From Pegea sp. RAD2-039 (Eukaryota > Chordata > Thaliacea > Salpida > Salpidae): a DNA stretch of 64,000 nt. Positions 2,505 to 64,000 of this stretch are shown here, piece by piece (position 1 is the first letter of the stretch; each line of letters begins with the position of its first letter). Below the pieces are notes generated by a model, which had not been told where the DNA came from, made no database searches, and was given only the letters and a program-made list of their open reading frames with translations. The DNA lies in assembly GCA_034620365.1 (NCBI GenBank), contig JAQGEQ010000192.1, positions 1,607,001 through 1,671,000 of the forward strand. The letters are read 5' to 3'. Position numbers and translations under genes: made by a program.

Positions 2505-2720
2505 TGACGTCACCACTTAAAGTGATGATGACGTCATCAAGAAATCTTTTCTTGCCGATCTTCTCTTTGATAATTACTCATCTTCTTCTTCTTCTGCTTT
2601 TTCCGCCTTTTTTACCTCAACTCTTTTTCCGATTTCCTTCATCATTTGATGAGCTGATCTTTGATGAAGAGCTGATCTTTTAAATATTTTCTCTTTTTTC
2701 TTTCAAATTCGAAATTGCAA

Positions 2721-2746
2721 AATAAAAACTGAAAACTCGAAATAAA
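2721..2746 (+). terminator. Polyadenylation signals of the first CYP26 gene
   Basis: Two AATAAA hexamers, at 2721-2726 and 2741-2746, lie about 220-240 bp past the stop codon. The 3' end must fall very close to the end of the convergent CYP26 gene (stop at 2772), so the two 3' UTRs probably overlap. Confidence 0.5.
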
Positions 2747-2762
2747 AAACTTAAAACAACAA

Positions 2763-2780
2763 CAGCGCCTCCTAGTGGTG
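2763..2780 (-). promoter_or_regulatory. CTCF-like motif at the CYP26 convergence point
   Basis: Minus-strand CCACTAGGAGGCGCTG is a very close match to the CTCF consensus. It overlaps the stop codon of the second CYP26 gene and sits between the two convergent genes. Occupancy cannot be judged from sequence. Confidence 0.4.
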
Positions 2781-6811: not shown

Positions 6812-8540
6812 TTTTTCTTTTCTTTATCTTCAAGCTCTCGTTTTCGATAAATCAACAAGAAAAATCTGAAGTTAAATAAAAACAAGAATGAATTTAAATA
6901 ATCAAAAATTTTGTAAAATTAAAATTAGACTTAAAGATGAAGTAAAAAAGACTTTTCTTCCTTGATTTAAACTTCATTCTTCCAAATATAATTAGCTTTT
7001 TTAATTTATATTTATTTGCAAGTAAGCAAAATACATATATTTTAAAAAAAGGAATATTAGAAAATGGAAACTTAAGTTTATTAAAACTGAACAAAAGCAT
7101 TTGATTTATTTACTAATGACTTGCAGAAAAGACATGACAGTTTGCTTAAAGGTCCTCTTTACATCTAATCACCAAAATACGAATAAGCAGACGTTATTTT
7201 CTTTAAATCAAAAACAATCTAAACACTAAAAACTTTTATAAAACAACTAAAGTTATAATCTTCTTTAAAAACCCAATGAATAAACGATTTCAAGAACAAT
7301 AATAAAATAAACCATACTGGATTTAAAAGAGAAAAATATAAGCTTCTAAAAACAACTTTATATGAGATTTGTTTGAATTTAATTTCTCATGAAAAACGTT
7401 TGTTAAATTTTCAACTCTTTACAGAAGAGCTGACTTCTTTTTTATCTTTGTTAAGAGTCTTTCAACAAATCTTTTCTGTTATCTGATTGAATGATTTGAT
7501 CAACAGTTGCAAAAGCAACTTCAGAACAGAAGTATCAAACGTAATAAATTTCAATTTATTTTGTGTTATATAAACAGATTTTATGATAATAAATATAAGA
7601 TAAAGTAATAACAACTAATGAATGTTTTTAATGAGTTTTGCGATAAGAAGTACATCCAAATTAAAAAATATTTGTTGAAAATAACAAAAATTGAAAAACA
7701 GAACTTTAAAATAGTTTCTGTAATTGTTCAAAATTTATAGATTAATTTTCCATATTTTATAACTAATTACAAAGAAAAGTAAAACAGAAATTAGTTTTTA
7801 TATTACTAGAAATACAATTCCAATATAAATTAATGATGACAGAACAATATTTTATACAAACTTTTTAGCTTTAACAGTTCTATTTGCTTTCTTTACTGAT
7901 TTACCTACAGCTTTAACAAAAAACAAATTAAACTTATTGAACTGTAAGCAAAGTTTGGAATACAAAACCAAATCAACATTACTTTTAACTTCATTGCTAT
8001 ATTCTCAATTTTGCAATGAAAACAAGGAAATAATTGTATTACAAGACACAATTTATTATTCTATATAAACATTTACCAAGAAATTGAATTTACATAGTCA
8101 TTTATTTGATAAATATTTAAACTTTATTGTAAATATTACAAATAATAAATGTTGATTTTCTTTTGTTAAAAATAGAGCTTTGAATAAATATACAAACTAA
8201 GCAGAAATAATTCACCTTTTCAGTTCTATTTTCTGTTGTTAATTCTAAATTTGATATAAGAAATAAATCTACAATCTTATTTTTTATAAAATATTAATAT
8301 CAACTTAACGACTAGTTAATTAGAAACTTAAAAATCAACAATTTTCACAAATAAAGTTTGAAATAAAACAAAATAATTATCAAATTTTTAAGATATCATT
8401 AATATGCAATTAAAGTTATTAAAATACTTTGAAAAAATAAAAATTATCATCAAAAAAAGCTTTCAACTTCAAAAAATAATTTTTTTCTTTTTTTTTTCAA
8501 GTCAGCTAAAGCGTTTAAAAAGTTTTTAAAATTATCTTTT
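6812..8540. other. Gene-free AT-rich stretch
   Basis: Upstream flank of the second CYP26 gene. Only short chance ORFs and homopolymer runs are visible; its promoter should lie near 6812-6900 but I see no clear TATA or initiator. Confidence 0.5.
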
Positions 8541-20465: not shown

Positions 20466-23003
20466 ATGTCTGGATTGACAAAGTAAGATTTTTGTTTTTA
20501 TTTCTGATGATAAAAAATATTTATGAAATCTTTTTGTATCATGAATTTATTTTATTCATGGCTGCAAATCACAAATTATATAGCTCTTATAGATCGAGAA
20601 AAAATATGAAAGAATGAATAAATTTCCTTGGTTATAATAATTAATGTAAAAAAATATAAACACTGCAGAGGCATAAGTAAAAATTATGAATAAAATAATT
20701 GATTTTAGTTATTAGTCTATTTATTTATTTATTTATATATTTATTATAAAAGTTTTAATTTTTACGATGATAAATTGTTTATCATATAATTAAATAAATT
20801 AATAGTTAGTTTATCTATAAAGTGATTATTATCAAAATTATTTCAATTTTTTTTCATATATTAACTTAAATAAAATAAAAATATAAATTTTAAAACCAAC
20901 ATCAATTCAATTTTTTAGAATTCTTCCTCCTGTTGTCCAGCCACAGCCAGAAACTTTTGAAGCTCCTAAAGTCTTCTCAACTGCTTTAATAACGACATCA
21001 TTTGAACCTCCTCCTTATCAGCAACGAAAATCTTTCATCCCAAGATCAGAGAATGATTTTGGTGATGGAGGTGCTTTTCCTGAAATTGCTATTGCTCAAT
21101 ACCCTTTGGTTAGTTCATTTTTCTATCTTCTTTTTTCAATCTTTCAATATTTTTTGGGTTTCTTAGGGAATGGGCAAAAAAGATCTTCAAAAATCCAACG
21201 CTTTATCAATTCAAGTCGATGCCGAAGGAAATATCAAATATGACGCAATTGCCAAATATGGCCATAGCAAAGACCGAGTGGTCCACAGCAAATTCAAACA
21301 GCTTGTCCCAAAAGGTGTCCTAGATGATGATGATCCGGAGTTACAAAGACCTGATGAAGAAACTATTCAAAAAGTAACAATTTGTTGCCATTAACAGCAA
21401 TTTTATTTTAATATTTGCAGCAAACTGAAAAAACTCGTTTAGCGCTAGAAAAATTGACCAATGAGAAAGTGTCTGCTGCCATGCCAGTGAAGAGGGCGGA
21501 AAGAAGGGGTCCGACCCAACATATCAGGTAATGAAGGAGCCTCAAATGACATCTATCTCAATTGGTACTCGTCAGATATACTCCATCTCAACAAGGAGAA
21601 GCTTTTAATTCTGGAGCAAAACAGAGAGTCATCACAATGGTAGAGATGCAGAAAGATCCGATGGAGCCTCCAAAATTCCGGACCAACAAGAAGATCCCTG
21701 GAGGACCTCCGAGTCCTCCTCCACCAATCATTCATTCTCCCAACAAAAAGATCTCAGTGACAGAGCAGCAAGCCTGGAGGATCCCACCATGCATCTCTAA
21801 CTGGAAGAACGCAAAAGTAAGATGAAGAAACTAGCATCCAGACACTGATCTTCATCATCTACTACAGGGACACACAATCCCTCTTGACAAGCGGTTAGCA
21901 GCAGATGGAAGAGGACTTCAAGATGTCCACATCAACGAGAACTTTGCTCAGTTATCCGAAGCTCTTTATATTGCTGATCGTAAGGTGATGACTACCTCCA
22001 TCTAAAGACGATCTCTTCTTCATCCTCTATCTTTTTAGGCTCGTAAGAATGTCGAGATGCGAGCTAATGTGGAAAGAAGCATCGCGGCTCGCGAGAAGGA
22101 AGCAAAGGAGAGACAACTTCGTCAACTCGCCGAAGAATCGCGAAACAAGCGAGCCGGTTTCCGTAAAGAGGACAATGGTGAGTGACGTCATCATCGCTTC
22201 TCGTGATGTAATCGATTGTGTCGCAGAGGAAGTGGTTGAACGCGATAAAATTCGTCACGAGCGAGAACGCGACCGTGCACGAAGGAGAAACATCGAAAGA
22301 GCAGCTCCCGAGAAGAAGTAAGATTTCGGGATGTCCTGATGACGTCATCAGTGTTGATGTTTTCAGGAATCGTTTACGTAACGAAGATCGGGACATCAGT
22401 GAGAAGATCGCTTTGGGAATTCCAAACAAGAGTCGTGGTCAAAACGATACTCAGTTTGATCAACGACTTTTCAACAAAACTGCGGTGAGTTGACAAGTGG
22501 GTGGTCACGTGACTTGAGGTACTAATTGGTGGTCACCAGGGTATGGACAGTGGCTTTGCTGGTGGTGATGATGAAGGGTACAGTGTCTATGACCAGCCCT
22601 GGCGTCGTGAGGGACAAGCTGGGAATATTTACCGACCATCTAGAAATAAAGACTCCGAAGTTTATGGAGATGAAGATATTGAAAGACTTAAACGAAAGAA
22701 TCGGTAAGTAGGATGAAGATTAGATGAAAGATGCTGATGTTTGATGTTGTCTTCAGTTTTGTTCCTGAGAAACCGTTTAGTGGTGCAGATGATGAACAAG
22801 GCCGAAGAGATGGTCCTGTTCAGTTCGAGAAGAAAGATAGTTATGAAGATGTGTTTCAACTGGATAAGTTTATGGAGTTGGCTAAAAGGGTTAGGAATAT
22901 TTGATTGTTGATTGAGGATTTTGTTGATGAAGTTTGTTTGCAGGCTGGTAAACGAGGAAGCGAAAAGGATGATCATGATAAGACTAAAAGAAAAAGGAAT
23001 TAA
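20466..23003 (+). CDS. SNW1: SNW1/SKIP splicing and transcription co-regulator (12 exons)
   Basis: Nuclear SNW/SKIP protein, component of the activated spliceosome and coactivator (family knowledge). Exons: 20466-20482, 20919-21108, 21167-21373, 21421-21527, 21576-21816, 21868-21984, 22039-22177, 22227-22317, 22367-22484, 22540-22703, 22757-22889, 22944-23003; phases agree throughout and give 527 residues, near the human length. Seen: DFGDGGAFPEI, SNALSIQVD-like block, YTPSQQGEAFNSGAKQR, PGGPPSPPPPIIHSP, the signature CISNWKNAK (about 246-254), ADGRGLQDVHINENFA, GMDSGFAGG and a basic tail. The first exon holds only 17 coding bases and is separated by a 436-bp intron; the remaining introns are about 50 bp. 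Fully intact. Confidence 0.97.
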
Positions 23004-23053
23004 AACTATTTGTTCGTATTTGGCTTGTAAAAGTCCAAGTATTATTGTGTATG

Positions 23054-23059
23054 AATAAA
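23054..23059 (+). terminator. SNW1 polyadenylation signal
   Basis: AATAAA 51 bp after the SNW1 stop codon; a second AATAAA follows near 23090. Confidence 0.6.
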
Positions 23060-23099
23060 TTTCATTTTATATATTGTAAAAAGTTCACAATAAAAATGA

Positions 23100-24600
23100 A
23101 ATCTTTAAAAGTATAAAAGATAAATTTCTGAAATTAAAATAAAAAAGAGTTAAAAATAAAAGCTTTGAATCACTAAATGAAGATTCAGTTCAAATAGAAT
23201 CTAGGCTAGATTGAGTTTTTGATGTTTGCTTATCTAAACCAACAATATCTTTGATAATAAAGATGAGTAAATGATCTTTAGTTCAAAGATTTGATGTAAA
23301 ATACAATTAAATAATTTGGAAAAATTTCAATAATTTATCGATAAGAAGATCAATTCAGGCAGAGGTGTGAACAAAAAACTAAAAATTAATTCAATTTTGT
23401 TGAAGAAATCTTCATAATTGACTGATCCAAAAACATAAGATTTTTCTTTACGATTAATGAGTCAACAGTGTATAAGTAACTTCTTGAAAATACACTTAGA
23501 TAAAAATTGTCCACTTGTGAAGCTTGGTTTTCAATTTTTTGAAAAATTATGTTCGTACAATAGGCAAAAAATGGAAAATTAGACATAATTTTGTTTAAAA
23601 GATCTTCATGTATAACTGAAATGAGATGTTTGCTAGAAAATATTATTAAATACTTCAGGTCAATTAGATTTTAACTTTTTGAATAATTTATAAACAGTAT
23701 TAAAATTATTTCTATAAAATTATCATAAAAAACGAAAAAAACATAGTTCGAAAAAACGAAGTTCAGAGATGTATAGGATTATGAATTAGAAAAAGAATAT
23801 AGATGTTTTAAAATAAATCTAAAACCAACATGCCGGTTTGTTGAGCTTTAAGTTTACAAGAATGTAATTTATATTTTCAATACTTAAAACTAAAAAAGAT
23901 GGGAAGTAAAATTGTTTTACTTGCAAATGATAATTATTAAAAAAACAATAATATTTAGGTTTGTGATGAGTTGAAATGATAAAACTGTAACAAGCTTAAT
24001 GTTGAGAACACAATGTTTATATTCCAACGTATTTCTAACTTCAGTAATTATGAACTGCATCAATTTAATGTGTGGAATAAATTCAGAAATACTTTCAAAG
24101 CTGTAAAATTTTGCTTTTCAACAATCTTTTAGAGAAATTTTTTGGACAGTTTGTTTGTTAAAGCTCTAAGAAATCCTTAAAAGTTGATGATAAAACCGAA
24201 AAAAAATCTGAAAAAGGGTAACATCTCTAATAGGTACTTCTAAAAAATCATTTGAAAACTGCTTTACAAAAATTTATATTTCTTAATTTACATTTAAGAA
24301 AATGGCTGGATTGAAATAAGTTAATTCTATAATTTGTCCTACTAAAATAAAAACATTTAATTGTTTGATGTTTTGAAAAACATTTTCATGAAATTCAATT
24401 TTTGAAACTTTTATGTTTAAATAATTTAGAAACCTCTGAAATTGATTAAAAGGATAAGTTTTGTTGCTGGTTCCTACCTTTAATTTATTCATCATTTAAT
24501 ATTCAGAAGCTTAAATTTTAACTATCTTTTTAAAAAGTTGATCAGATTTAGAATCGAATAAAGACTTTTAAACTATGATGACTTGTTACATTTTATAACT
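23100..24600. other. Gene-free AT-rich stretch
   Basis: I see no gene, RNA or organised repeat here. Confidence 0.5.
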
Positions 24601-27046: not shown

Positions 27047-29133
27047 GTAAGTATAAGTCTTCTTACTTCATTCAGATCAAATCATTTGAGAAAAAATGAG
27101 ATAAGAGCAATGACCTAAAAAAAGATCATTTTTAAATATTTAATAATTATTAAAAATTACTTTTACATTATTAAGTCTAGTTTTTTTTCTGAATATTTTT
27201 CAGAGTTTGAACTTATTAGTATTAGGCTTAAAAGTTATTGTTTAACTTTCAAATCTTAAATTTATCTTTTTTTAAATTTATGTTTTATTTTATTTTACTT
27301 AGTAAGCAAATTAGAAATTTATCAAACTTGACTTTTAAATACTTGTAAATAATTTATAAGCAACATCAATAATTCATTTTATCTCGATTATTTAGAAATT
27401 TGTCAATAATAATACTGACGGTTATAAACATTTGTGCAAATTTTGCAGCTGAACTAAAAGTTTAATAGCAAACTTTTTATCTAATTAGTCAACTACTATT
27501 ACATTGCAATCTGTTAAGACCACTTAATTACGATAGGAATAAAATAAACATTTAAAGTAAGAATTATTGCTCAAAATATTTTTACAAAACAATATTTTAG
27601 CAGAAGATTTAGCAGCTTTTTTTTTGTCCATTATTCTAACAAAAATCGATATTTACTTTTTAGAACAAGCACAAAGTTGCAGTTGTTCAGCAAATTTAAA
27701 GTTAGTAACAATCTAAATTAAAGATAAGAGAACATAACACAATTACATATTTCCATGTTTCAGTCTTACTATTTTGTATAAAAAAAAATTAAAAGCTTTG
27801 CAAAGAAATTAGAATTGTTCAAGAAAGAATTAATTCTTAAATAAATAAGCAACACTATTTGTTCTTAGATATTTTGCTTACTTAGTCAGGCTCAAGCTTT
27901 TTTACTGGCAGAAAAGAAATTTAAACTAAATATTGAATTTATTTTAGTATATTTGATTGTAACTTTTAGTGTTATTTTCTTAAAGTTGTTTATAGCTTTT
28001 TCTAACAGATAAAAAGTTTACAAAAGTTATTACTTGGATGTTTTTAAATTATTTTTGAGTCGTGTTTAGAAGATTTAAGTAAAAATGGCTTTATATTCAA
28101 ATGTTTTATTTTCATTTTTTTCTTTTAAAGTTTTCAGTTGATAACTTTGTAATCAGATTAGTTATCGAATTTTAAACAATTTCAAAACAGATTTTTTCCG
28201 AACGATTTTGTGCCCTTAAATAAACTTTATCTGCGTTTTCTAAATATTACTATTTCGAAATTCAACTTTGCTAAAATAGGATACTACGTAGTTCTTACAT
28301 ACGTCTGTATAAAAAACATTTTGATTCATCAAATGTTTTAGACCAACTGAAATAAACGATTTCAAAACTAACATTTTTTCTTAACTTAATAATTTTATGA
28401 TGGTAGCAAAAACTAACCTTGCAAATATATTTTTTCAGAGTTAGCTTGGTTTGCACTGTGGGATCTTATATCTTTAAAGAAACTTGAAATGTCACTTTTT
28501 TACCGCTATGGAGCTCAATCATGTAAGATTTTGTCAATATATTTTATGCTGTATCATTTTGATAAAATAGTGAAAGTAATGGCCCAAAGGTTCAAAGTAA
28601 ACAACACAAATGAGTCATGAGTGACATCAATGACAATTTAGTGACTACAGGGCTATCTACAATTAAATGTTTAATTCTTTTAGTAGAAACTTATTTGTGT
28701 AAAGGGTTTTTTATTTAAGTAGCAACTTCTGGTTAGTTTTTAAATTGTTTTCTTAAAACTTTTTTTTGAGATAATTCAAGGAACTAACAAAAAGTTCAAC
28801 AGATTAATTTTACTAAAAACATTTCTCAATAAATCTTCGCAATATTTTTTCTTTAGTTTTTTTTTAATTAAACTTTAATCGAGTGCTTTTTGAAATCCTT
28901 CGTTGATTTAAGATTTCAACAAACTTTCGAAATTTCGCGAAATTTAAGAAATCAATTGTAACAGAGAGAAACGTTTTTTCAATTGATGAGAACCTTTTAG
29001 ACACGAAGTTTTTTTTGCAAATAAAATAAATTTAACTTCTTGATTATTTTTCTAATTTTTATTTTTCTTTACAGTAGACAATTTCAAATCAAACTCAATC
29101 GATATTAGAGGAGAAAATATTCTGAGTGAAGAA

Positions 29134-30126
29134 ATGCCCTCTCTGATATTTGGAATCAGCCCCACATTTTATTCACTCAATGATAGATCTTATCTAGCTA
29201 TGCAATCTTCTAGAGATCAAGCTTCACATGGAAATTTTTCATCTTCTTTTTACGTCATGAAGCCTGATAACAACTCATCAAAACCCTCTCATCAGCGGCG
29301 GCCATGTTTGAAAAGTCCTACATCGAAGCCTCTTTCTGATTCCTTCCGGGTTGAAAAGACAAATGTGCCGCTGAATCCAATAACTCACTCGAAGCATGTG
29401 ACGTTTGCTGATTCAAAAGGTTTTGAGCTGACGCGTATCAAATATTTGTACGAAACTCCTAATGAACCTCCAAGATCGTTTACTGAGGGAGAATCTTTCT
29501 ATGAAGCCTTGAAAAATCTAAGATTAACTCCGAGCGACGAGAAAACTCAAACATCCAAACCCCAAATGAACCCCCTGACACGATTCCATCTCACGTTTCC
29601 CCAACCATTTGCTGATTTCCAAGACTTTAAACAAAGATTAGAAGAGGGAGGAGTTGCTTTAGAGAATTGTAGCATCGAATCAAGCGGGGTACTAAGTGGG
29701 TCGATAAAAGTGAAAAATTTAGCTTTTGATAAGGAGGTAGTTGTAAGAATCACATGTGATCAGTGGAAATCTTTTGTGGATCGCTTATGTAGCTTCGATG
29801 TTAACTCATCTAGATGTGATCCATGTCATGATACTTTCATCTTCAATATCAATGACTTGGCTCGAAGTCTTCCAATTAATTGCACAAGTGCCCACTTCTG
29901 CATTAAGTACACATGTGCGGGGCAGGAATTTTGGGACAGCAACAAGGGCGCCAACTATACTATTAATGTGAGTCAATCACCTTTGGACCAGCGCCTTAAT
30001 GTGTCATCAAATCGGTTGAAATCAGAGTATAAGGGTCTGAGGAAGACGCCGTTGACATATTCAGAGTTACCAACGCCTCAGCAGAGCGGCTGGAGTAGTC
30101 TAGATGTAGATTTACCTTTCTATTAG
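29134..30126 (+). CDS. Glycogen-targeting regulatory subunit of protein phosphatase 1 (PPP1R3 family)
   Basis: 330 residues in one coding exon. The family tethers PP1 catalytic subunit to glycogen particles and promotes glycogen synthesis (family knowledge). Seen: the PP1-binding RVxF-type motif KHVTF (87-91) followed by ADSKGFEL; a CBM21 carbohydrate-binding module over about 150-280, including TFPQPFADFQDFKQR, VLSGSIKVKNLAFDK and the closing WDSNKGANY (267-275). This order and size match the PPP1R3B/C/D group; which vertebrate member it is closest to cannot be decided by eye. The start follows an acceptor-like TTTACAG at 29074, consistent with a spliced 5' UTR. A possible AATAAA lies at 30616-30621. 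No defect seen. Confidence 0.9.
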   Translation: MPSLIFGISPTFYSLNDRSYLAMQSSRDQASHGNFSSSFYVMKPDNNSSKPSHQRRPCLKSPTSKPLSDSFRVEKTNVPLNPITHSKHVTFADSKGFELTRIKYLYETPNEPPRSFTEGESFYEALKNLRLTPSDEKTQTSKPQMNPLTRFHLTFPQPFADFQDFKQRLEEGGVALENCSIESSGVLSGSIKVKNLAFDKEVVVRITCDQWKSFVDRLCSFDVNSSRCDPCHDTFIFNINDLARSLPINCTSAHFCIKYTCAGQEFWDSNKGANYTINVSQSPLDQRLNVSSNRLKSEYKGLRKTPLTYSELPTPQQSGWSSLDVDLPFY

Positions 30127-39700: not shown

Positions 39701-41055
39701 ATTTTAAGAGTGTTTATTTTAATTTAATCAAATTAACTACAGAAATTAGTATTTCAAATTGATCACTAATTTAAAACAAATTGTTTACATTATAATTAAT
39801 AGATTTGAGGCTAAAAGATAAACAATTTAGAATTAAGAGTTTTGATGAGACCAGTAGTTGGTTTTTGAAATCTTTTTATAAGAAATTATTAAAGCAATGT
39901 TATAAGCTATTAAATAAGTACTAATATATATTAATTTAAAAATTAGTTAAGTAAATAATTACTACTTTTATTTTATAAAATAACAAGGTTATAACTTTTG
40001 ATAAAATTGGTATCTCTAGTGAACTAAAATCTTCTTAAACTTTATAGTTATAATTTTGTGTAGAAAAATTCATTTTTCAATTATACTGTTGTTTAATATA
40101 ATAAAATTTTAACAATTAATTATCAATAATAATTAAGCAGTATAGTTTTAATATCTAAAATATTTAAATAAAATAAATATAAAGGTCAAAGTTCAACATT
40201 TTTAAAATTTTTGACTCGAATAAAATTACAAAATTACAACAAAAAAATATATTAATACCCACTACTTAAGAATACTAAAAAAGTATCTATAAAACAAAAA
40301 ACTTACCATAATCAAGATTAAACAATTAATTTAATTGTTGCTCTGTAAGTTTATTTCATAAATCAAATAATAACAACATTGAAACTATTCTGCTTCTATC
40401 AGGTAGAATATAACAAATATTTATTTGAAAACTCAATATCCAATGAGAGATGGAAACATATAATGTTATGTAACTAGTTGTTACATAAATACTGAAAATA
40501 CCCTAATAAGAAAAATAAACTCCATAGGAATTTAATTACAATTATCACTGCGTTTCATTGCTTTATATAATTTTTTACTGTAAGGGAAGTTTACTATTTT
40601 TTTAATGTTTAGTTCAAAATTGTTTCTAGCTTAACTTAGTTCATCTCTCTTTTGACAAAGTATATACAAAAATTTTTTATTATGTTTATTTAATGTGTGG
40701 TTCACCACAAAGAAATAAATAGAATTATAAACAAATACGCAACATTTTACAAAAACACTTAACCATAATACACAGAGCTTCATACAATCCAACATTTAAA
40801 GCATCCTAAAGGCTGAATTACAGGCGAACGCCACCGCGCGCAGGCGTTCATAAATGGTAGTTAACCATTATTATTGAATTACAAAATGTATTTGAATCAT
40901 TAGGTAAAATACCACATACTAAAAATATAATAATTCGATAATGATATAAAAATGGCATAAAGTAGATAGTATCCATAATAAACAGACACTCACCAATATT
41001 GCTATACGATATAAGGCTAAATTAGTTAGTTGAAGCATCATCAGTAGGTAAAACT
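36780..41055. other. Gene-free AT-rich stretch left of the tRNA array
   Basis: No gene seen. It contains a CTCF-like site at 38985-38999 (minus CGCTAAGTGGCGCTA) and a GC-rich hairpin at 40826-40849. Confidence 0.5.
40826..40864. repeat. Two adjacent short inverted repeats
   Basis: GAACGCC (40826-40832) pairs with GGCGTTC (40843-40849) around the loop ACCGCGCGCA. Immediately to the right AATGGT pairs with ACCATT around AGTTA. The direct repeat TGAATTACA flanks the pair (about 40814 and 40875), which could be a target duplication of a tiny element. It lies about 190 bp left of the tRNA array. Confidence 0.4.
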
Positions 41056-41394
41056 TAATTATCTTTTTGCTTTCTTGTTCGCATTTAGACGAAGTAAAAA
41101 AAATTAATTCGTCAGATCATATAAAAGCGCCGATATCTTCCGAAGACATAACAGATGCTCGTTTTAAAATCATTTAAAAAATTTTAAAGTAATATTGGGT
41201 CAGCAACACATGTCTGTTTCACTTTAATTGTCATGCTGAATGGTTCAGGGCAGATTCCATCATACTCAACTGTTGCCTTAGTGTTTGTGTGAAATCGTTT
41301 CATCATGTTAAAGTGATCTTGTGGAGAGCCACTCTTCAATAGTATCGAGAACAGCTCTTACAGCATGACTGTTCTCAACTAAAGTAGAAAAAAA

Positions 41395-41466
41395 TGAGCC
41401 CGACGTGATTTGAACACGCAACCTTCTGATCTGGAGTCAGACGCGCTACCGTTGCGCCACAGGCTC
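41395..41466 (-). tRNA. tRNA-Trp(CCA), copy 1
   Basis: 72 nt. Acceptor stem GAGCCTG/CGGGCTC, D arm GCGC/GCGC, anticodon loop CTCCAGA, T arm GCGTG/CACGT with loop TTCAAAT, discriminator A, then T7. It closely matches vertebrate tRNA-Trp and appears functional. Its upstream flank (41467 onward) is the next RT spacer. Confidence 0.95.
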
Positions 41467-42119
41467 ATCACGCTCTTCTTAGTTCTTCAGCTTCTTCCTA
41501 AGTATAGAGCATCATAAAGAACAATCTGTTGCGACCTCTTTGTAAATGTTGGCATTAAATTTGAGCCGAGGCAAACGTAATCATCTACAATCTCAACTTC
41601 ACAGCCATCGAAGTTGTTTAGTTGTGAAACTTTAACATTTTAGTTTTGAACTTTTGTCTTTTGACTGATATTTATTCTAAAGTCTCTAGAGGCTGATGAA
41701 GATTGGTTCATAAGCATCTGCAATTCTTCTACAGGATGTACAACAGTTGCTGCCTCCTTGACAATACGTAACCCAAATATGATGATCTTTTTTACTTTGG
41801 TGTTCGCCTTTAAACGAGGTGCATTAAAAAATATTCGTCAGATCTTAAATAAACGCCGATATCTTCTGAAGACGTATGAGACGCATGTTTTAAAATCATT
41901 TAAAAAATTTTAAAGTAATGTTGGGTTAACCACACATGTCTGTTTCACTTTAATTGTCATGCTGAATGGTTCAGGGCAGATTCCATCATACTCGATTGTT
42001 GCCTTAATGTTTATGTGAAATGGTTTCATCTTGTTAAAAAGATCTTGTGGACAATCACTCTTCCATAGTATCGAGAACAGCTTTTTCAGCATGACCGTTC
42101 TCGACCAAAGTAGAAAAAA

Positions 42120-42191
42120 TGAGCCCGACGTGATTTGAACACGCAACCTTCTGATCTGGAGTCAGACGCGCTACCGTTGCGCCACAGGCTC
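42120..42191 (-). tRNA. tRNA-Trp(CCA), copy 2
   Basis: Identical to copy 1 in the tRNA body. The Pol III terminator is T6, the shortest of the array. Confidence 0.95.
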
Positions 42192-42842
42192 ATTACGCTC
42201 TTCTTCGTCCTTCAACTACTTCCCAAGTAGAAAGCATCATTAGGAACAATCTGTTGCGATCTCCTTGTAAATGTTGACATTAAATTTGAACAGAGGCAAA
42301 CGTAATTATCTACAATCTCAACATAAAGCCATCGACGTTGTTTAATTTTGGAACTTTAACTTTTTAGTTTTGAACTTTTGTCTTTTGACTGATATTTATT
42401 CTAAAGTCTGTAGAGGTTGATGAAAATTGGTTTATAAGCATCTGCAATTCTTTTACTGGATGTGCAACAGTTGCTGCCTCTTTGACAATAAGTAGCCCAA
42501 ATATGATGATCTTTTTTACTTTCGTGTTCGCCTTTAAACGAGGTGCATTAAAAAATATTCGTCAGATCTTAAATAAACGCCGATATCTTCTGAAGACCTA
42601 TGAGACGCATTGTTTTAAAATCATTTAAAAAATTTTAAAGTAATGTTGGGTTAACACACATTCTGTTTCACTTTAATTGTCATGTTGAATGGTTCAGGGC
42701 AGATTTCATCATACTCAATGTTGCCTTAGTGTTTATGTGAAATGGTTTCATCATGTTAAAGAGATCTTGTGGACGACCACTCTTCAATAGTATCGAGAAC
42801 AGCTCTTCCAGCATGACCGTTCTCGACCAAAGTAGAAAAAAA

Positions 42843-42914
42843 TGAGCCCGACGTGATTTGAACACGCAACCTTCTGATCTGGAGTCAGACGCGCTACCGT
42901 TGCGCCACAGGCTC
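42843..42914 (-). tRNA. tRNA-Trp(CCA), copy 3
   Basis: tRNA body identical to copy 1, followed by T7. The RT spacer just downstream has a one-base deletion relative to the other units. Confidence 0.95.
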
Positions 42915-43570
42915 ATTACGCTCTTCTTCGTCCTTCAGCTACTTCCCAAGTAGAAAGCATCATTAGGAACAATCTGTTGCAATCTCCTTGTAAATGTTGG
43001 CATTCAATTTGAGCCGAGGCAAACGTAATTATCTACAATCTCAACGTCACAGCCATCGAAGTTGTTTAATTTTGAAACTTTAACATTTCAGTTTTGAACT
43101 TTTGTCTTTTGACTGATATTTATTCTAAAGTCTGTAGAGAATGATGAAGATTGGCTCATTAGCATCCTAAATTCTTTTACTGGATGTGCAACAGTCGCTG
43201 CATCATTGACAATATGTAGACCAAATATGATGATCTTTTTTACTTTCTTGTTCGCCTTTAAAAGAGATGCATTAAAAAATAATTTTGTCAGATCTTAACT
43301 AAACGCCGATATCTTCCGAAGACATATGAGACGCTTGTTTTAAAATTATTTAAAAAAGTACCAAGTAGTGTTGGGTTAACAACACATTTCTGTTTCACTT
43401 TAATTGTCATGCTGAATGGTTCAGGGCAGATTCCATCATACTCGATTGTTGCCTTAGTGTTTATGTGAAATGGTTTCATCATGTTAAAGAGATCTTGCGG
43501 ACAGCCACTCTTCAACAGTATCGAGAACAGCTGGTTCAGCATGACCATTTTCGACCAATTTAGAAAAAAA

Positions 43571-43642
43571 TGAGCCCGACGTGATTTGAACACGCAACCT
43601 TCTGATCTGGAGTCAGACGCGCTACCGTTGCGCCACAAGCTC
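43571..43642 (-). tRNA. tRNA-Trp(CCA), copy 4 (acceptor-stem variant)
   Basis: One change from copy 1: C to T at position 5 of the acceptor stem, turning a C-G pair into U-G beside the existing U-G, giving two consecutive wobble pairs. It is probably still foldable. It is followed by T7 and the subtype-B RT spacer. Confidence 0.92.
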
Positions 43643-44296
43643 ATCACGCTCTTCTTAGTTCTTCAGCTACTTCCCAAGTAGAAAGCATCATTAGGAACAA
43701 TCTGTTGCAATCTCCTTGTAAATGTTGGCATTCAATTTGAACCGAGGCAAACGTAATTATCTACAATCTAAACTTCACAGCCATCGAAGTTGTTTAGTTG
43801 TGGAACTTTAACATTTTAGTTTTGAACTTTTGTGTTTTGACTGATATTTATTCTAAAGTCTGTAAAGGTTGATGAAAATTGGTTTATAAGCATCTGCAAT
43901 TCTTTTACAGGATGTGCAACAGTTGCTGCCTCTTTGACAATAAGTAGCCCAAATATGATGATCTTTTTTACTTTCGTGTTCACCTTCAAACGAGGTGCAA
44001 TAAAAAATATTCGTCAGATCTTAAATAAACGCCGATATCTTCTGAAGACGTATGAGACGCATGTTTTAAAATCATTTAAAAAATTTTAAAGTAATGTTGG
44101 GTTAACAACACATGTCTGTTTCACTTTAATTGTCATATTGAATGGTTCAGGGCAGATTTCATCATACTCGATTGTTGCCTTAGTGTTTATGTGAAATGGT
44201 TTCATCTTGTTAAAGAGATCTTGTGGACAATCACTCTTCAAAAGTATCGAGAACAGCTTTTTCAGCATGACCGTTCTCGACCAAAGTAGAAAAAAA

Positions 44297-44368
44297 TGAG
44301 CCCGACGTGATTTGAACACGCAACCTTCTGATCTGGAGTCAGACGCGCTACCGTTGCGCCACAGGCTC
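44297..44368 (-). tRNA. tRNA-Trp(CCA), copy 5
   Basis: tRNA body identical to copy 1; T7 follows. Confidence 0.95.
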
Positions 44369-45020
44369 ATTACGCTCTTCTTCGTCCTTCAACTACTTCC
44401 CAAGTAGAAAGCATCATTAGGAACAATCTGCTGCAATCTCCTTGTAAATGTTGGCATTCAATTTGAGCCGAGGCAAACGTGATTATCTAATCTAAACTTC
44501 ACAGCCATCGAAGTTGTTTAGTTTTGAAACTTTAACATTTCAGTTTTGAACTTTTGTCTTTTGACTGATATTTATTCTAAAGTCTGTAAAGGTTGATGAA
44601 AATTGGTTTATAAGCATCTGCAATTCTTTTACTGGATGTGCAACAGTTGCTGCCTCTTTGACAATATGTAGCCCAAATATGATGATCTTTTTTACTTTGG
44701 TGTTCGCCTTTAAACGAGGTGCAATAAAAAATATTCGTCAGATCTTAAATAAACGCCGATATCTTCTGAAGACGTATGAGACGCATGTTTTAAAGTCATT
44801 TAAAAAATTTTAAAGTAATGTTGGGTTAATCACACATGTCTGTTTCACTTTAATTGTCATATTGAATGGTTCAGGGCAGATTCCATCATACTCGATTGTT
44901 GCCTTAGTGTTTATGTGAAATGGTTTCATCATGTTAAAGAGATCTTGTGGACGACCACTCTTCAACAGTATCGAGAACAGCTTTTTCAGCTTGACCGTTC
45001 TCGACCAAAGTAGAAAAAAA

Positions 45021-45092
45021 TGAGCCCGACGTGATTTGAACACGCAACCTTCTGATCTGGAGTCAGATGCGCTACCGTTGCGCCACAGGCTC
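45021..45092 (-). tRNA. tRNA-Trp(CCA), copy 6 (position 26 variant)
   Basis: G to A at position 26, between the D and anticodon stems. This position is unpaired, so function is probably kept. T7 follows. Confidence 0.93.
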
Positions 45093-45744
45093 ATCACGTT
45101 CTTATTAGTCCTTCAGCTATTTCCCAAGTAGAAAGCATCATTAGGAACAATCTGTTGCGATCTCTATGTAATAGTTTGCATTAAATTTGAACAGAGGCAA
45201 ACGTAATTATCTACAATCTCAACATAAAGCCATCGACGTTGTTTGGTTTTGGAACTTTAACTTTTTAGTTTTGAACTTTTGTCTTTTGACTGATATTTAT
45301 TCTAAAGTCTGTAGAGGTTGATGAAAATTGTTTATAAGCATCTGCAATTCTTTTGCTGGATGTGCAACAGTTGCTGCCTCTTTGACAATAAGTAGCCCAA
45401 ATATGATGATCTTTTTTACTTTCGTGTTCGCCTTTAAACGAGGTGCATTAAAAAATATTCGTCAGATCTTAAATAAACGCCGATATCTTCTGAAGACGTA
45501 TGAGACGCATGTTTTATAATCATTTAAAAAATTTTAAAGTAATGTTGGGTTAATCACACAGGTCTGTTTCACTTTAATTGTCATATTGAATGGTTCAGGG
45601 CAGATTTCATCATACTCGATTGTTGCCTTAGTGTTTATGTGAAATGGTTTCATCATGTTAAAGAGATCTTGTGGACGACCACTCTTCAACAGTATCGAGA
45701 ACAGCTTTTTCAGCATGACCGTTCTCGAACAATGTAGAAAAAAA

Positions 45745-45816
45745 TGAGCCCGACGTGATTTGAACACGCAACCTTCTGATCTGGAGTCAGACGCACTACC
45801 GTTGCGCCACAGGCTC
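45745..45816 (-). tRNA. tRNA-Trp(CCA), copy 7 (D-stem variant)
   Basis: The second base of the 3' strand of the D stem is T instead of C (GTGC for GCGC), making a G-U pair. Still foldable. T7 follows. Confidence 0.92.
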
Positions 45817-46470
45817 ATCACGTTCTTATTAGTCCTTCGACTACTTCCCAAGTAGAAAGCATCATTAGGAACAATCTGTTGCGATCTCTATGTAATAGTT
45901 TGCATTAAATTTGATCAGAGGCAAACGTAATTATCTACAATCTCAACGTCACAGCCATCGAAGTTGTTTAGTTTTGAAACTTTAACATTTCAGTTTTGAA
46001 CTTTTGTCTTTTGACTGATATTTATTCTAAAGTTTGTAGAGGTTGATGAAAATTGTTTTGTAAGCATCTGCAATTCTTTTACAGGATGTGCAACAGTTGC
46101 TGCCTCTTTGACAATACGTAGCCCAAATATGATGATCATTTTTACTTTCGTGTTCGCCTTTAAACGAGGTGCATTAAAAAATATTCGTCAGATCTTAAAT
46201 AAACGCCGATATCTTCTGAAGACGTATGAGACGCTTGTTTTAAAACCATTTAAAAAATTTTAAAGTAATGTTGGGTTAACCACACATGTCTGTTTCACTT
46301 TAATTGTCATGTTGAATGGTTCAGGGCAGATTTCATCATACTCAACTGTTGCCTTAGTGTTTATGTGAAATGGTTTCATCATGTTAAAGAGATCTTGTGG
46401 ACGACCACTCTTCAATAGTATCGAGAACAGCTCTTCCAGCATGACCGTTCTCGACCAAAGTAGAAAAAAA

Positions 46471-46542
46471 TGAGCCCGACGTGATTTGAACACGCAACCT
46501 TCTGATCTGGAGTCAGACGCGCTACCGTTGCGCCACAGGCTC
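46471..46542 (-). tRNA. tRNA-Trp(CCA), copy 8
   Basis: tRNA body identical to copy 1; T7 follows. Confidence 0.95.
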
Positions 46543-47196
46543 ATTACGCTCTTCTTCGTCCTTCAACTACTTCCCAAGTAGAAAGCATCATTAGGAACAA
46601 TCTGTTGCGATCTCCTTGTAAATGTTGGCATTCAATTTGAAGCGAGGCAAACGTAATTATCTACAATCTCAACGTAACAGCCATCGATGTTGTTTGGTTG
46701 TGGAACTTTAACATTTTAGTTTTGAACTTTTGTGTTTTGACTGATATTTATTCTAAAGTCTGTAGAGAATGATGAAGATTGGCTCATAAGCATCTGCAAT
46801 TCTTTTACAGGATGTGCAACAGTTGCTGCCTCTTTGACAATATGTAGCCTAAATATGATGATCTTTTTTACTTTCGTGTTCGCCTTTAAACGTGGTACAT
46901 TAAAAAATATTCGTCAGATCTTAAATAAACGCCGATATCTTCTGAAGACGTATGAGACGCTTGTTTTAAAACCATTTAAAAAATTTTAAAGTAATGTTGG
47001 GTTAACCACACATGTCTGTTTCACTTTAATTGTCATGTTGAATGGTTCAGGGCAGATTTCATCATACTTGATTGTTGCCTTAGTGTTTATGTGAAATGGT
47101 TTCATCATGTTAATGAGATCTTGTGGAGAGCCACTCTTCAACAGTATCGAGAACAGCTTTTTCAGCAAGACCGTTCTCAACTAAAGTAGAAAAAAA

Positions 47197-47268
47197 TGAG
47201 CCCGACGTGATTTGAACACGCAACCTTCTGATCTGGAGTCAGACGCGCTACCGTTGCGCCACAGGCTC
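47197..47268 (-). tRNA. tRNA-Trp(CCA), copy 9
   Basis: tRNA body identical to copy 1. Its downstream RT spacer is nearly the same as that of copy 11, including a shared DLINMM variant. Confidence 0.95.
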
Positions 47269-47923
47269 ATTACGCTCTTCTTCGTCCTTCAACTACTTCC
47301 CAAGTAGAAAGCATCATTAGGAACAATCTGTTGCGATCTCCTTGTAAATGTTGGCATTCAATTTGAAGCGAGGCAAACGTAATTATCTACAATCTCAACG
47401 TAACAGCCATCGATGTTGTTTGGTTGTGGAACTTTAACATTTTAGTTTTGAACTTTTGTGTTTTGACTGATATATATTCTAAAGTCTGTAGAGAATGATG
47501 AAGATTGGCTCATAAGCATCTGCAATTCTTTTACTGGATGTGCAACAGTCGCTGCATCATTGACAATCTGTAGACCAAATAGGGTGATCTTTCTGCCCTA
47601 TTGTTCCCTTTTAAACGAGGTGCATTAAAATATATTTTCTTCAAATCTTAAATAAACGCCGATATCTTCCAAAGACATATGAGACGCTTGTTTTAAAATC
47701 ATTGAAAAAAGTGCCAAGTAGTGTTGGGTTAACGACACATTTCTGTTTCACTTTAATTGTCATGTTGAATGGTTCAGGGCAGATTCCATCATACTCTATT
47801 GTTGCCTTAGTGTTTATGTGAAATGGTTTCATCATGTTAAAGAGATCTTGTGGATAATCACTCTTCAATAGTATCGAGAACAGCTCTTCCAGCATGACCG
47901 TTCTCGACCAAAGTAGAAAAAAA

Positions 47924-47995
47924 TGAGCCCGACGTGATTTGAACACGCAACCTTCTGATCTGGAGTCAGACGCGCTACCGTTGCGCCACAGGCTC
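47924..47995 (-). tRNA. tRNA-Trp(CCA), copy 10
   Basis: tRNA body identical to copy 1; followed by the subtype-B RT spacer. Confidence 0.95.
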
Positions 47996-48649
47996 ATTAC
48001 GTTCTTATTAGTCTTTCAGCTTCTTCCCAAGTAGAAAGCATCATTAGGAACAATCTGTTGCGATCTCTATGTAATAGTTTGCATTAAATTTGAACAGAGG
48101 CAAACGTAATTATCTACAATCTCAACTTCACAGCCATCGACGTTGTTTGGTTTTGAAACTTTAACATTTTAGTTTTGAACTTTTGTCTTTTGACTGATAT
48201 TTATTCTAAAGTCTGTAGAGGTTGATGAAAATTGGTTTATAAGCATCTGCAATTCTTTTACAGGATGTGCAACAGTTGCTGCCTCTTTGACAATAAGTAG
48301 CCTAAATATGATGATCTTTTTTACTTTCGTGTTCGCCTTTAAACGAGGTGCATTAAAAAATATTCGTCAGATCTTAAATAAACGCCGATATCTTCTGAAG
48401 ACGTATGAGACGTTTGTTTTAAAACCATTTAAAAAATTTTAAAGTAATGTTGGGTTAACCACACATGTCTGTTTCACTTTAATTGTCATGTTGAATGGTT
48501 CAGGGCAGATTTCATCATACTTGATTGTTGCCTTAGTGTTTATGTGAAATGGTTTCATCATGTTAATGAGATCTTGTGGAGAGCCACTCTTCAACAGTAT
48601 CGAGAACAGCTTTTTCAGCAAGACCGTTCTCAACTAAAGTAGAAAAAAA

Positions 48650-48721
48650 TGAGCCCGACGTGATTTGAACACGCAACCTTCTGATCTGGAGTCAGACGCG
48701 CTACCGTTGCGCCACAGGCTC
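48650..48721 (-). tRNA. tRNA-Trp(CCA), copy 11
   Basis: tRNA body identical to copy 1; spacer like that of copy 9. Confidence 0.95.
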
Positions 48722-49375
48722 ATTTCGCTCTTCTTCGTCCTTCAGCTACTTCCCAAGTAGAGAGCATCATTAGGAACAATCTGTTGCGATCTCCTTGTAA
48801 ATGTTGACATTAAATTTGAAGCGAGGCAAACGTAATTATCTACAATGCCAACGTCACAGCCATCTACGTTGTTTAGTTGTGAAACTTTAACATTTTAGTT
48901 TTGAACTTTTGTCTTTTGACTGATATTTATTCTAAAGTTTGTAGAGGTTGATGAAAATTGGTTTATAAGCATCTGCAATTCTTTTACAGGATGTGCAACA
49001 GTTGCTGCCTCCTTGACAATACGTAGCCCAAATATGATGATCTCTTTTACTTTCGTGTTCGCCTTTAAACGAGGTGCATTAAAAAATATTCGTCAGATCT
49101 TATATAAACGCCGATATCTTCTGAAGACGTATGAGACGCATGTTTTATAATCATTTAAAAAATTTTAAAGTAATGTTGGGTTAATCACACAGGTCTGTTT
49201 CACTTTAATTGTCATGTTGAATGGTTCAGGGCAGATTTCATCATACTCGATTGTTGCCTTAGTGTTTATGTGAAATGGTTTCATCATGTTAAAGAGATCT
49301 TGTGGAGAGCCACTCTTCAACAGTATCGAGAACAGCTTTTTCAGCATGACCGTTCTCGAACAATGTAGAAAAAAA

Positions 49376-49447
49376 TGAGCCCGACGTGATTTGAACACGC
49401 AACCTTCTGATCTGGAGTCAGACGCGCTACCGTTGCGCCACAGGCTC
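49376..49447 (-). tRNA. tRNA-Trp(CCA), copy 12
   Basis: tRNA body identical to copy 1; T7 follows. Confidence 0.95.
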
Positions 49448-50102
49448 ATTACGCTCTTCTTAGTCCTTCAGCTACTTCCCAAGTAGAAAGCATCATTAGG
49501 AACAATCTGTTGCAATCTCCTTGTAAATGTTGGCATTCAATTTGAAGCGAGGCAAACGTAATTATCTACAATCTCAACGTCACAGCCATCGATGTTGTTT
49601 AGTTGTGAAACTTTAACATTTTAGTTTTGAACTTTTGTCTTTTGACTGATATTTATTCTAAAGTCTGTAGAGAATGATGAAGATTGGCTCATAAGCATCT
49701 GCAATTCTTTTACTGGATGTGCAACAGTCGCTGCATCATTGACAATCTGTAGACCAAATAGGGTGATCTTTCTGCCCTATTGTTCCCTTTTAAACGAGGT
49801 GCATTAAAATATATTTTCTTCAAATCTTAAATAAACGCCGATATCTTCTGAAGACATATGAGACGCTTGTTTTAAAATCATTGAAAAAAGTGCCAAGTAG
49901 TGTTGGGTTAACGACACATTTCTGTTTCACTTTAATTGTCATGTTGAATGGTTCAGGGCAGATTCCATCATACTCTACTGTTGCCTTAGTGTTTATGTGA
50001 AATGATTTCATCATGTTAAAGTGATCTTGTGGATAACCACTCTTCAACAGTATAGAGAACAGCTCTTTCAGCATGACTGTTCTCGAACAATGTAGAAAAA
50101 AA

Positions 50103-50174
50103 TGAGCCCGACGTGATTTGAACACGCAACCTTCTGATCTGGAGTCAGACGCGCTACCGTTGCGCCACAGGCCC
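50103..50174 (-). tRNA. tRNA-Trp(CCA), copy 13 (array edge, altered 5' end)
   Basis: The acceptor stem starts GGGCCTG rather than GAGCCTG, giving a G-U pair at position 2. Array homology stops here: DNA upstream of the tRNA (50175 onward) is unrelated to the other units. The gene therefore lacks the shared upstream flank and may be expressed differently. The downstream spacer is subtype B. Confidence 0.9.
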
Positions 50175-53479: not shown

Positions 53480-53800
53480 ATTTCTTGAAAATCACCAGTT
53501 TCCAACACCCCTGATCGGATCCCTGCTTTGTTTTTAAGAAAACTACTTCCTCTTTATCACTACTTTTATCGCCACTCTTTAACATCACTCTGAGTCGAGG
53601 AAGAGTTTTACAAATTTGGAAGAGAGCTATCATTGCTTCTATTCATAAAAACGGTCCCAGAAACACTGCATTTAACTACAGACCAGTTTCACTGACTTCA
53701 GTTATCTGCAGAACTAAAAAACACATCATTCACAATCATATGAGCAGTCATTCGATGGAGCACCATTTAATATCTGATATCCAACATGGCTTTGTTCTGC
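53480..53800 (+). pseudogene. Non-LTR retrotransposon RT fragment, frameshifted
   Basis: Reads as the N-terminal part of a non-LTR RT: KSPVSNTPDRIPALFLRK (family KSPxxxGPDGIPxxxLK), a frame change, then GRVLQIWKRAIIASIHKNG, NYRPVSLTSVICR and LISDIQHGF. At least one frameshift lies near 53550-53610, and similarity stops just after QHGF. The style is CR1/Jockey-like. It covers an RT portion N-terminal to the array fragments, so the two need not be the same element. No ends or target duplication identified. Confidence 0.75.
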
Positions 53801-53829
53801 TTTATTTATTTCTATAGGAAATATTCAAA

Positions 53830-61376: not shown

Positions 61377-64000
61377 ATGGCTAAACATCATTGGCAGAGT
61401 AATAATGTAAAGACCAGTGGCTTGGATGACATGGTCTTGCTTACTAAGATGACGGACTCTGCAATTGTTGATAATTTAAAGAAGCGATATATGGATGATC
61501 AAATTTTTGTATCCTTTAAGATATCAGTTAACTGTTCAGTAATTTGTTAGATTATCATCTGGTATTATTAAATCATATTTTCCAAACTTAATAGTTACTT
61601 GTAGACTTACATTGGACCTGTGCTTGTATCTGTCAATCCATTTAAACAAATGCCTTATTTTACTGACAAAGAAGTTGATATATATCAAGGAGCTGTAAGT
61701 TAATCATTCTTATAAAACATTTCGATTTATATCTTGATATTAAATAGTTGTTGGTTACAGGCTTCTTATGAAAATCCTCCTCATGTGTACGCTTTAGCAG
61801 ATGACATGTACAGAAATATGTTGATTGACTCTGAAAATCACTGTGTTATTATTAGTGGCGAGTCTGGTGCAGGAAAAACTGTTGCTGCTAAATTTATTAT
61901 GGGATATATTTCTAAGGTCTGACTCATTTTTGATTACTGTTAACTTCAAATCATCGTTTTTTCACTTAACTTACTGATGATGTCATCATATTATTTAAAG
62001 AAAAATAAGATATTTATTTATTTTATCTAAACATTCACTTAGCTTCTAACTTAATAGCGACCATAATTTCCTGGTTTTCAAAGTTTTCAAAAAATCATTT
62101 TAATTGTTCTGAAACAGGTTTCAGGCGGTGGGGAACGTGTTCAGCATGTTAAAGAGATTATTTTGCAAAGTAATCCTCTCTTGGAGGCGTTTGGTAACGC
62201 TAAAACTGTTCGAAATAACAACAGCAGTAGATTTGTGAGTAATAGACAACTTTCTTCACCGGCTTCTAATCACTATTTCATTTTATTCAAAAGGGTAAAT
62301 ATTTTGAAATACAATTTAGCCGAGGTGGTGAACCTGACGGAGGCAAAATTTCCAACTTTTTGCTCGAAAAGTCGCGCGTAGTACAACAAAATATGGCAGA
62401 GAGGAACTTTCACATTTTTTATCAACTAATTAGCGGTGCAGATGAAAATATTAAAAGTGAGAAGCTTCTATTCAACTCTTTCCTTCGATTCTTTTATTTT
62501 CACAAAATCTCTTCATGTTTCCGGTTCGCAAAATAAAAACTTTTTAACTTTCCGTGACTTTATTCAACTTCCGGTTGTAAGATTGATAATTAACTAGCTA
62601 AACGTGAATTTACGAGTTGAAAATCAGTTTATTTGATTCTTTCTTCCAGCTGAGCTGGGACTTGCATCCGCTGAATATTTTTATTATTTAAATCAAAGTG
62701 GTTGTTATGAAGTTGATGGTACAGATGATAAAGCTGAGTTTCAAGAAACAGTTGAAGCGATGGGGGTGATAGGTATTCTCCTATTTCATCTCATCAATCT
62801 TTATTTGATCTTTATCATCTTTTATCAGGTTTATCACCAGATGATCAACAGATGGTCCTACAAATCACTTCCAGTATCTTACATCTAGGCAATATCAGTT
62901 TTGTGGAAAACGGAAATTACGCTCAAGTAGAGAATCAAGACTGTTAGTTCCACCAACCTGATCCACTAATCTTGTTTTCGTGTCTTTTATGAAATTGTTG
63001 ATGAGTCAACGCCTTGTTTTAATCCATTAATCTGATTGGTTGTTTAAAAACTGTTGTCCTCAGCAAATATTCAGTTTTTAAGGAAGTCGTTTTAATTTTT
63101 ATGACTAGTAATAAGTCACGTGTTCACTGTTGTGGTTTGCTCAACCACTACTAATCTTTATTATCAATTTTATATCAACATTTCTTTTTTAGTCTTGTCA
63201 TATCCTGCTTATTTGCTGGGAGTGAACGAAGATGATTTACAAAACAAACTGACCAGTCGTAAAATGGATAGTAAATGGGGAGGAAAAAGTGAATCAATCG
63301 ATGTAACGTTGAATGTAGAACAAGCTTCTTACAGCAGGTTACTCACCAATACCAACTTTCACCTCAATTCTTTATTGCATTCAAACAAACCACTTTTTGC
63401 GTATCAGGCGGAAATACAAACTGCTTCTAACTTTCATTGCAAATTTCTTCAAACAATACTTGCTTTCATTTTCTATTTATTGTTGTAGAAGCCAACACTA
63501 AAAATATACTTGTTTCAACAACCAGTCTCTGCTGCAAATGGTTGTTTTAACAACCAGTATCTGGTGCAAATGGTTGTTTCAACAACCAGTATCTGCTGCA
63601 AATGGTTTCAACAACCAGTAGCTGGTGCAAATTGCTTTTTCAACAACCAGTATCTGGTGCAAATGGTTGTTTCAACAACCAGTATCTGCTGTAAATGGTT
63701 GTTTCAACAACCAGTATCTGCTGTAAATGGTTGTTTCAACAACCAGTATCTGCTGCAAATGGTTTGAACAACCAGTATTTGCTGCAAATGGTTTGAACAA
63801 CTAGTCAGCAACTGGTTTATTTACAGACAGTGAAAGTTGCAAATATCGCTGTAATATAAACAAACTTTTATCTTACAGAGATGCTCTCGCAAAAACTCTA
63901 CATTCGCGATTATTTGACTTCTTAGTTCAAAGTGTCAACATCGCTATCCGGAAAGATTACAACGAACTCAACATCGGGGTCTTGGACATCTACGGATTTG
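61377..64000 (+). CDS. MYO1E/F: Long-tailed class I myosin heavy chain, MYO1E/F type (5' part, runs off window)
   Basis: Actin-based motor of membranes and endocytosis. Exons: 61377-61508, 61605-61694, 61761-61916, 62118-62234, 62294-62456, 62650-62772, 62829-62942, 63193-63337 and 63879-64000 (continues). About 387 residues of the motor domain are present. Seen: [19 protein letters not shown] start as in MYO1[11 protein letters not shown]-loop GESGAGKT (107-114), switch I NNNSSRF (159-165), [20 protein letters not shown], and switch II beginning DIYGF at the window edge. Exon 1 uses an unusual donor, GTATCC. Intron 8 carries a minisatellite. The tail, which would decide between MYO1E/F and others, is outside the window. 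Confidence 0.94.
63509..63813 (+). repeat. Minisatellite (29-32 bp unit) in myosin intron 8
   Basis: About nine full copies plus a partial one of a unit like GTTGTTTCAACAACCAGTAT + CTGCTGCAAATG, with 29-bp shortened variants. Most units contain the near-palindrome GGTTGTT-TC-AACAACC, able to form a 7-bp-stem hairpin. The repeat also stays open in one frame (63510-63767), which is a by-product of its period and not a gene. Confidence 0.9.

Follow-up and report, generated by a model that had tools for sequence, protein, structure and literature searches.

The clustering of transfer RNA (tRNA) genes differs widely among eukaryotic species (PubMed Central accession PMC2888827). In Entamoeba, tRNA arrays make up more than 10 % of the genome, with up to five tRNAs per unit and short tandem repeats between the genes; the flanks of these arrays often hold retrotransposon sequences (PMC2652664). 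Hydractinia has evenly spaced tandem tRNA arrays for all 20 amino acids, rated unusual outside Entamoeba, and likewise has arrays of other RNA genes (PMC11067881). We analysed a stretch of 64,000 nt from the salp Pegea sp. RAD2-039 (the window; positions are counted from its first letter), in which 13 tRNA-Trp(CCA) genes stand in tandem, separated from one another by a fragment of a retrotransposon reverse transcriptase (RT).

This locus belongs among the tandem tRNA arrays, and its spacer is the distinguishing feature. Like the arrays of Hydractinia, also an animal, it consists of near-identical, evenly spaced tRNA genes whose spacers resemble one another and measure several hundred bases or more; in contrast, the Hydractinia arrays hold tens to hundreds of copies, and the accessible part of that account mentions no retrotransposon-derived spacer (PMC11067881). 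With Entamoeba it shares the tandem tRNA units, but here every unit has the element fragment as its spacer and carries a single tRNA. There is also a likeness to the tRNA/LINE-1 and U6/LINE-1 chimeras, in which the 5′ side of a long interspersed nuclear element (LINE), either full or truncated, bears a small RNA; the tRNA/LINE-1 chimeras are mostly half-length, antisense and at separate loci (PMC13174262), whereas the tRNA here is complete, in sense and in tandem. An earlier sequence-only reading of this DNA knew of no tRNA array whose spacers consist of RT sequence, and none was found in the open-licence PMC literature either, which is weak evidence of absence, most subscription papers lying outside this coverage. 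Tandem tRNA genes as such are not new and are also present elsewhere in this genome; the unusual part is the retrotransposon spacer. Exchange between the tRNA genes themselves, if it shaped such rows, would throw light on changes in tRNA copy number and on why mobile-element pieces between these genes are carried along.

ARAGORN found 13 tRNA-Trp(cca) genes at 41394-50174, all on the minus strand and head to tail, and no other tRNA in the whole window; Rfam RF00005 returned the identical set with 63.2-68.7 bits (cut-off 29). The start-to-start period of 723-728 bp and the copy number are thus as first described. A run of six or seven T follows the 3′ end of the tRNA in 13/13 units, in agreement with the terminator proposed for each gene. 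Since each of the tRNAs is followed by a terminator-like T run of its own and no sign of a joint tRNA-RT transcript was seen, ‘separated by’ describes the arrangement better than the earlier wording of a tRNA ‘fused’ to RT sequence. The array lies within a 4.5-Mb contig and is composed of 12 complete units and a partial one, u1, at the low-coordinate end, where similarity to the other units ends at about 41040, close to the 41061 given before; around 355 bp of spacer are retained there, with unrelated DNA beyond. The upstream edge coincides with the 5′ end of the u13 tRNA to within about 2 bases. The features of the array are, from its upstream edge:

50103..50174, minus strand: tRNA-Trp(CCA) u13, at the upstream array edge; A to G at base 2, pairs as G-U (ARAGORN, Rfam, cloverleaf)
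49448..50102, minus strand: u13 spacer, dead RT fragment
49376..49447, minus strand: tRNA-Trp u12 (ARAGORN, Rfam)
48722..49375, minus strand: u12 spacer, dead RT fragment
48650..48721, minus strand: tRNA-Trp u11 (ARAGORN, Rfam)
47996..48649, minus strand: u11 spacer, dead RT fragment
47924..47995, minus strand: tRNA-Trp u10 (ARAGORN, Rfam)
47269..47923, minus strand: u10 spacer, dead RT fragment
47197..47268, minus strand: tRNA-Trp u9 (ARAGORN, Rfam)
46543..47196, minus strand: u9 spacer, recombinant (u11-like first quarter, u10-like last quarter)
46471..46542, minus strand: tRNA-Trp u8 (ARAGORN, Rfam)
45817..46470, minus strand: u8 spacer, dead RT fragment
45745..45816, minus strand: tRNA-Trp u7; base 22 C to T, pairs as G-U (Rfam, cloverleaf)
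45093..45744, minus strand: u7 spacer, dead RT fragment
45021..45092, minus strand: tRNA-Trp u6; G to A at the unpaired base 25 of the 72-mer (Rfam, cloverleaf)
44369..45020, minus strand: u6 spacer, dead RT fragment
44297..44368, minus strand: tRNA-Trp u5 (ARAGORN, Rfam)
43643..44296, minus strand: u5 spacer, dead RT fragment
43571..43642, minus strand: tRNA-Trp u4; base 5 C to T, pairs as G-U (Rfam, cloverleaf)
42915..43570, minus strand: u4 spacer, dead RT fragment
42843..42914, minus strand: tRNA-Trp u3 (ARAGORN, Rfam)
42192..42842, minus strand: u3 spacer, dead RT fragment; query for the comparison with dispersed copies
42120..42191, minus strand: tRNA-Trp u2 (ARAGORN, Rfam)
41467..42119, minus strand: u2 spacer, dead RT fragment
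41395..41466, minus strand: tRNA-Trp u1 (ARAGORN, Rfam)
41040..41394, minus strand: partial u1 spacer with about 355 bp of RT, bordered by unrelated DNA; most diverged copy

The tRNA genes look functional. Nine of the 13 are identical over 72 bases, and the four substitutions (in u13, u4, u7 and u6) all fit the cloverleaf, three leaving a G-U pair and one being unpaired, with folding energies remaining between -25.9 and -23.1 kcal/mol. Conservation is much stronger in the tRNAs than in the spacers, with a mean pairwise identity of 99.2 % (u2-u12) versus 92.5 % (u2-u13) and with 3/72 versus 150/653 variable columns among u2-u12; of the 582 windows of 72 columns that start in the spacer, even the least variable contains 7 such columns, the median being 17. 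This is the pattern that purifying selection on the tRNAs would leave.

A reading frame through one of the tRNA-Trp genes (window 47641-48015) reads WRNGSASDSRSEGCVFKSRR. The open reading frame (ORF) running from tRNA into RT gave 589 database protein matches, and the five examined among the 120 listed all carry WRNGSASDSRSEGCVFKSRR or a close string; such entries look like translated tRNA-Trp genes. No RT was seen by eye in these five proteins, and the search is uninformative on the composite in relatives.

The origin of the spacer becomes apparent from a search of the unit against the 105.7-Mb assembly, in which 40 of the 67 first-look candidates were scored, so that all counts are lower bounds. 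There were at least 54 matches, i.e. 13 at the array locus (86-100 % identity) and 41 elsewhere (65-76 %), the latter to the spacer part only, while no second copy of the tRNA and RT unit was found among the scored candidates. Sixteen regions, fetched for high-ranking outside matches, contain 17 of the 41. Between them, these loci match a main segment of the spacer that begins about 32 bp past the tRNA and stops about 80 bp short of the following one; individual dispersed copies span smaller parts, with main matches of 177-495 bp and a best E of 8e-46. A second segment comprises the final ~75 bp of the spacer, ending ~7 bp short of the following tRNA; at 6/17 places it aligns with the element in the same orientation, 430-525 bp downstream of where the RT matches. 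In shuffle tests its score was reached 0/400 times at four of the 17 places (L045, L051, L055 and the second place in L052), two more gave p of 0.0125 or less (L043 and L057) and 11 were not significant; the lowest p among the controls was 0.0225 upstream and 0.175 in antisense. The element share of the spacer is therefore about 610 of 649 bp (positions ~33-643) in two adjoining segments, with an internal deletion of 410-460 bp relative to the dispersed copies (positions in L045, L051, L052 and L055). A narrower test, which took the final 36 and 60 bases of the spacer and was confined to ~200 bp around the RT, gave nothing consistent among 11 copies, the lowest uncorrected shuffle p being 0.016 for L043, and the ~27 bp after the T run had no consistent place in the element among eight copies, L045 alone giving p 0.005, at two unrelated places.

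As the two array pieces scanned with Pfam gave no match (0/2 at E 0.1), the identity of the RT rests on the dispersed copies, a link that we regard as sound. Four of six open pieces of these copies match RVT_1 (E 1.6e-7 to 1.5e-4), that of L047 alone exceeding the curated cut-off (31.7 versus 29.6 bits), and a protein search with the L047 piece gave five proteins, four of them with a precomputed RVT_1 domain. RT similarity in the spacers thus emerges by way of the dispersed copies, which together match most of the ~650 bp described before as sense-oriented RT. We take the RT to be of the non-LTR (long terminal repeat) type. Several of the dispersed copies encode a peptide like ..TKAFDLVSRE.LFSILLK.. 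across the point where the array homology starts, i.e. after the KAFD motif (motif A, the first catalytic motif). The fragment is in sense relative to the tRNA and is dead, without intact coding capacity: in the 12 full units, stops interrupt every one of the three sense frames, with at least four in any frame.

Exchange between the units is evident from the spacers, which are alike between units as in concerted evolution and have pairwise identities of 88.7-96.9 % in u2-u13. The first quarter of the u9 spacer is 100 % identical to u11 and its last quarter 100 % identical to u10, and u9 is clearly a recombinant of the two. Units u10 and u13 pair at 96.9 %, each being 88.7-92.6 % identical to the remaining units, and u1 at the array edge is the most diverged (84-88 % to the others). 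The 12 full, alike units and the recombinant u9 bear out the proposal that the composite was amplified; the single founding event placed before it leaves both the element arriving beside the tRNA and the tRNA arriving beside the element standing. Element sequence lies almost directly before the inner tRNAs and not before u13; a simple reading would therefore be that a piece of the element once separated two tRNA-Trp genes, or that the breakpoint of a duplication fell at the 5′ end of a tRNA.

Other tandem RNA genes are found in the same genome. An Rfam tRNA search of the assembly, in which 63 of 8,798 candidates were scored, all of them above the cut-off, gave 30 loci, 21 of which were scanned with ARAGORN. 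Rows of 3-5 tRNA-Cys genes occur at five places on two contigs (L013, L016, L019, L021 and L025; contigs C19 and C77), with a spacing mostly of 195-197 bp and in some cases 215-361 bp; their spacers, mostly ~125 bp, are without a match to the Trp unit, which had no match inside these rows. By eye, the outer flanks of all five multi-copy rows turn unrelated within ~15 bases of a tRNA or T run, the trace expected from exchange between tRNA genes, although the rows are not all independent, as L016 and L025 share their downstream flank. Such exchange would leave edges at tRNA borders, as on the upstream side of the Trp array, whose downstream end lies inside the RT.

Repeated Phe, Asn and Lys genes were seen at one of the scanned loci, and one contig has two stretches, 10.0 and 9.5 kb long, that contain 11 and 12 Phe/Lys/Asn genes within direct repeats. 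One of these stretches resembles the Trp array further in containing RT sequence, namely an ORF of 283 aa (L064:4213-5061; RVT_1, 72.9 bits); a scan of three stretches for long ORFs showed it in a single spacer. This ORF shares 71 % identity over 92 aa with a piece at window 53515-53817 and does not match the L047 piece, the relative of the Trp spacer. Short pieces in the same stretch match the fetched element loci, one of them also matching the end of the Trp spacer (72 % over 65 bp, E 2e-4). The Trp locus is therefore less exceptional than claimed before, given these other tandem tRNA rows and the one with RT sequence. In addition, four tandem 5S ribosomal RNA genes lie within 1.3 kb (L059-L062; C1:1385410-1386691) with a start spacing of 365-430 bp (47/880 candidates scored).

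Taken together, the locus is very probably a working tRNA-Trp tandem array that was amplified by unequal exchange and carries the retrotransposon fragment as a passive spacer. The likeliest course would start with one tRNA-Trp gene, or two of them, ending up by chance next to an element that was truncated and already in decay, after which unequal exchange would have multiplied the two together; continuing exchange and conversion between units may then have gone along with selection on the tRNAs alone, maintaining them while the RT decayed. RNA polymerase III would read each gene from within and stop at its own T run, as judged from sequence; we likewise infer this order of the first events and selection as the cause of the conservation. 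Several points weigh against this course. Fisher's test on the variable columns (p 5e-5) assumes independent sites, and conversion favouring one tRNA sequence could alone homogenise the tRNAs. The u3 tRNA, in which a B-box-like string is present, fails a strict A-box pattern, and the genome-wide tRNA-Trp searches recovered just 2/13 array copies, too few for a count of the tRNA-Trp genes elsewhere. Moreover, unlike the edges of the tRNA-Cys rows, the downstream edge lies 355 bp into the spacer and not at a tRNA border, so that the history of exchange is not simple.

It is also possible, though unlikely and less favoured than chance juxtaposition, that the composite arose by chimeric retrotransposition, i.e. 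that the RT of the element switched from its own messenger RNA to a tRNA-Trp transcript and joined a full tRNA in sense to a 5′-truncated element before tandem amplification. The tRNA is indeed full-length, 5′ of the element and in sense with it, the upstream array edge falls within ~2 bases of the tRNA 5′ end, the T run sits at the junction of tRNA and element, and small-RNA/LINE-1 chimeras are on record; those with tRNA, however, are mostly half-length and antisense (PMC13174262). Furthermore, ~27 bp without clear element homology separate the T run from the element, no target-site duplication was seen by eye in the array flanks, with the downstream end truncated, and the five examined tRNA-Cys rows likewise end near tRNA borders, which offers another cause for the upstream edge. 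Compared with the 16 element loci, the array flanks gave short matches only (36-55 bp, E 4e-6 or weaker). If such a chimera had nevertheless been the founder, a mobile element would have founded part of the tRNA supply of this genome as a functional tRNA gene family.

A role for the spacer itself, e.g. as a chromatin boundary or replication barrier accompanying the tRNA genes, would agree with its presence in all 12 full units and with tRNA genes as possible barriers (PMC2888827), but common descent of the units accounts for that presence, and with 150/653 columns variable and stops throughout, retention for function appears improbable. Tandem repeats are often misassembled; an assembly artefact or falsely expanded repeat is nonetheless very improbable here, since the full spacers differ by 3-11 % in pairs and are thus placeable by long reads, and the array is interior to its contig. 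Least probable of all is a tRNA-derived short interspersed nuclear element (SINE) or another mobile composite that stands in tandem by chance. A tRNA head followed by LINE sequence is the general make-up of SINEs, but all 13 copies lie at one locus with no dispersed copies of the unit found among the scored candidates, ARAGORN detected a tRNA in 0/16 element loci, one of these lacking some letters, and the tRNA is conserved more than the spacer. In addition, the LINE part has its start within the RT coding region rather than a 3′ tail; it is mostly RT coding region, and its last ~75 bp match the element further downstream, possibly towards its 3′ end.

Elsewhere in the window, a gene for a CBM21 (starch/glycogen-binding) protein lies at 29056-30126, with an 89 % identical relative on a 1.4-kb contig. 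Positions 1-6823 hold several ORFs on both strands with cytochrome P450-like pieces by eye, of which Pfam confirms that at 2772-3179, with no P450 match for 168-596. The region 22001-24000 has a GC skew of 0.265, strong compared with the remainder of the window. A myosin head exon was found at 62067-62381 (56.6 bits), and a minisatellite with a 32-bp period and about nine copies is located at 63510-63805.

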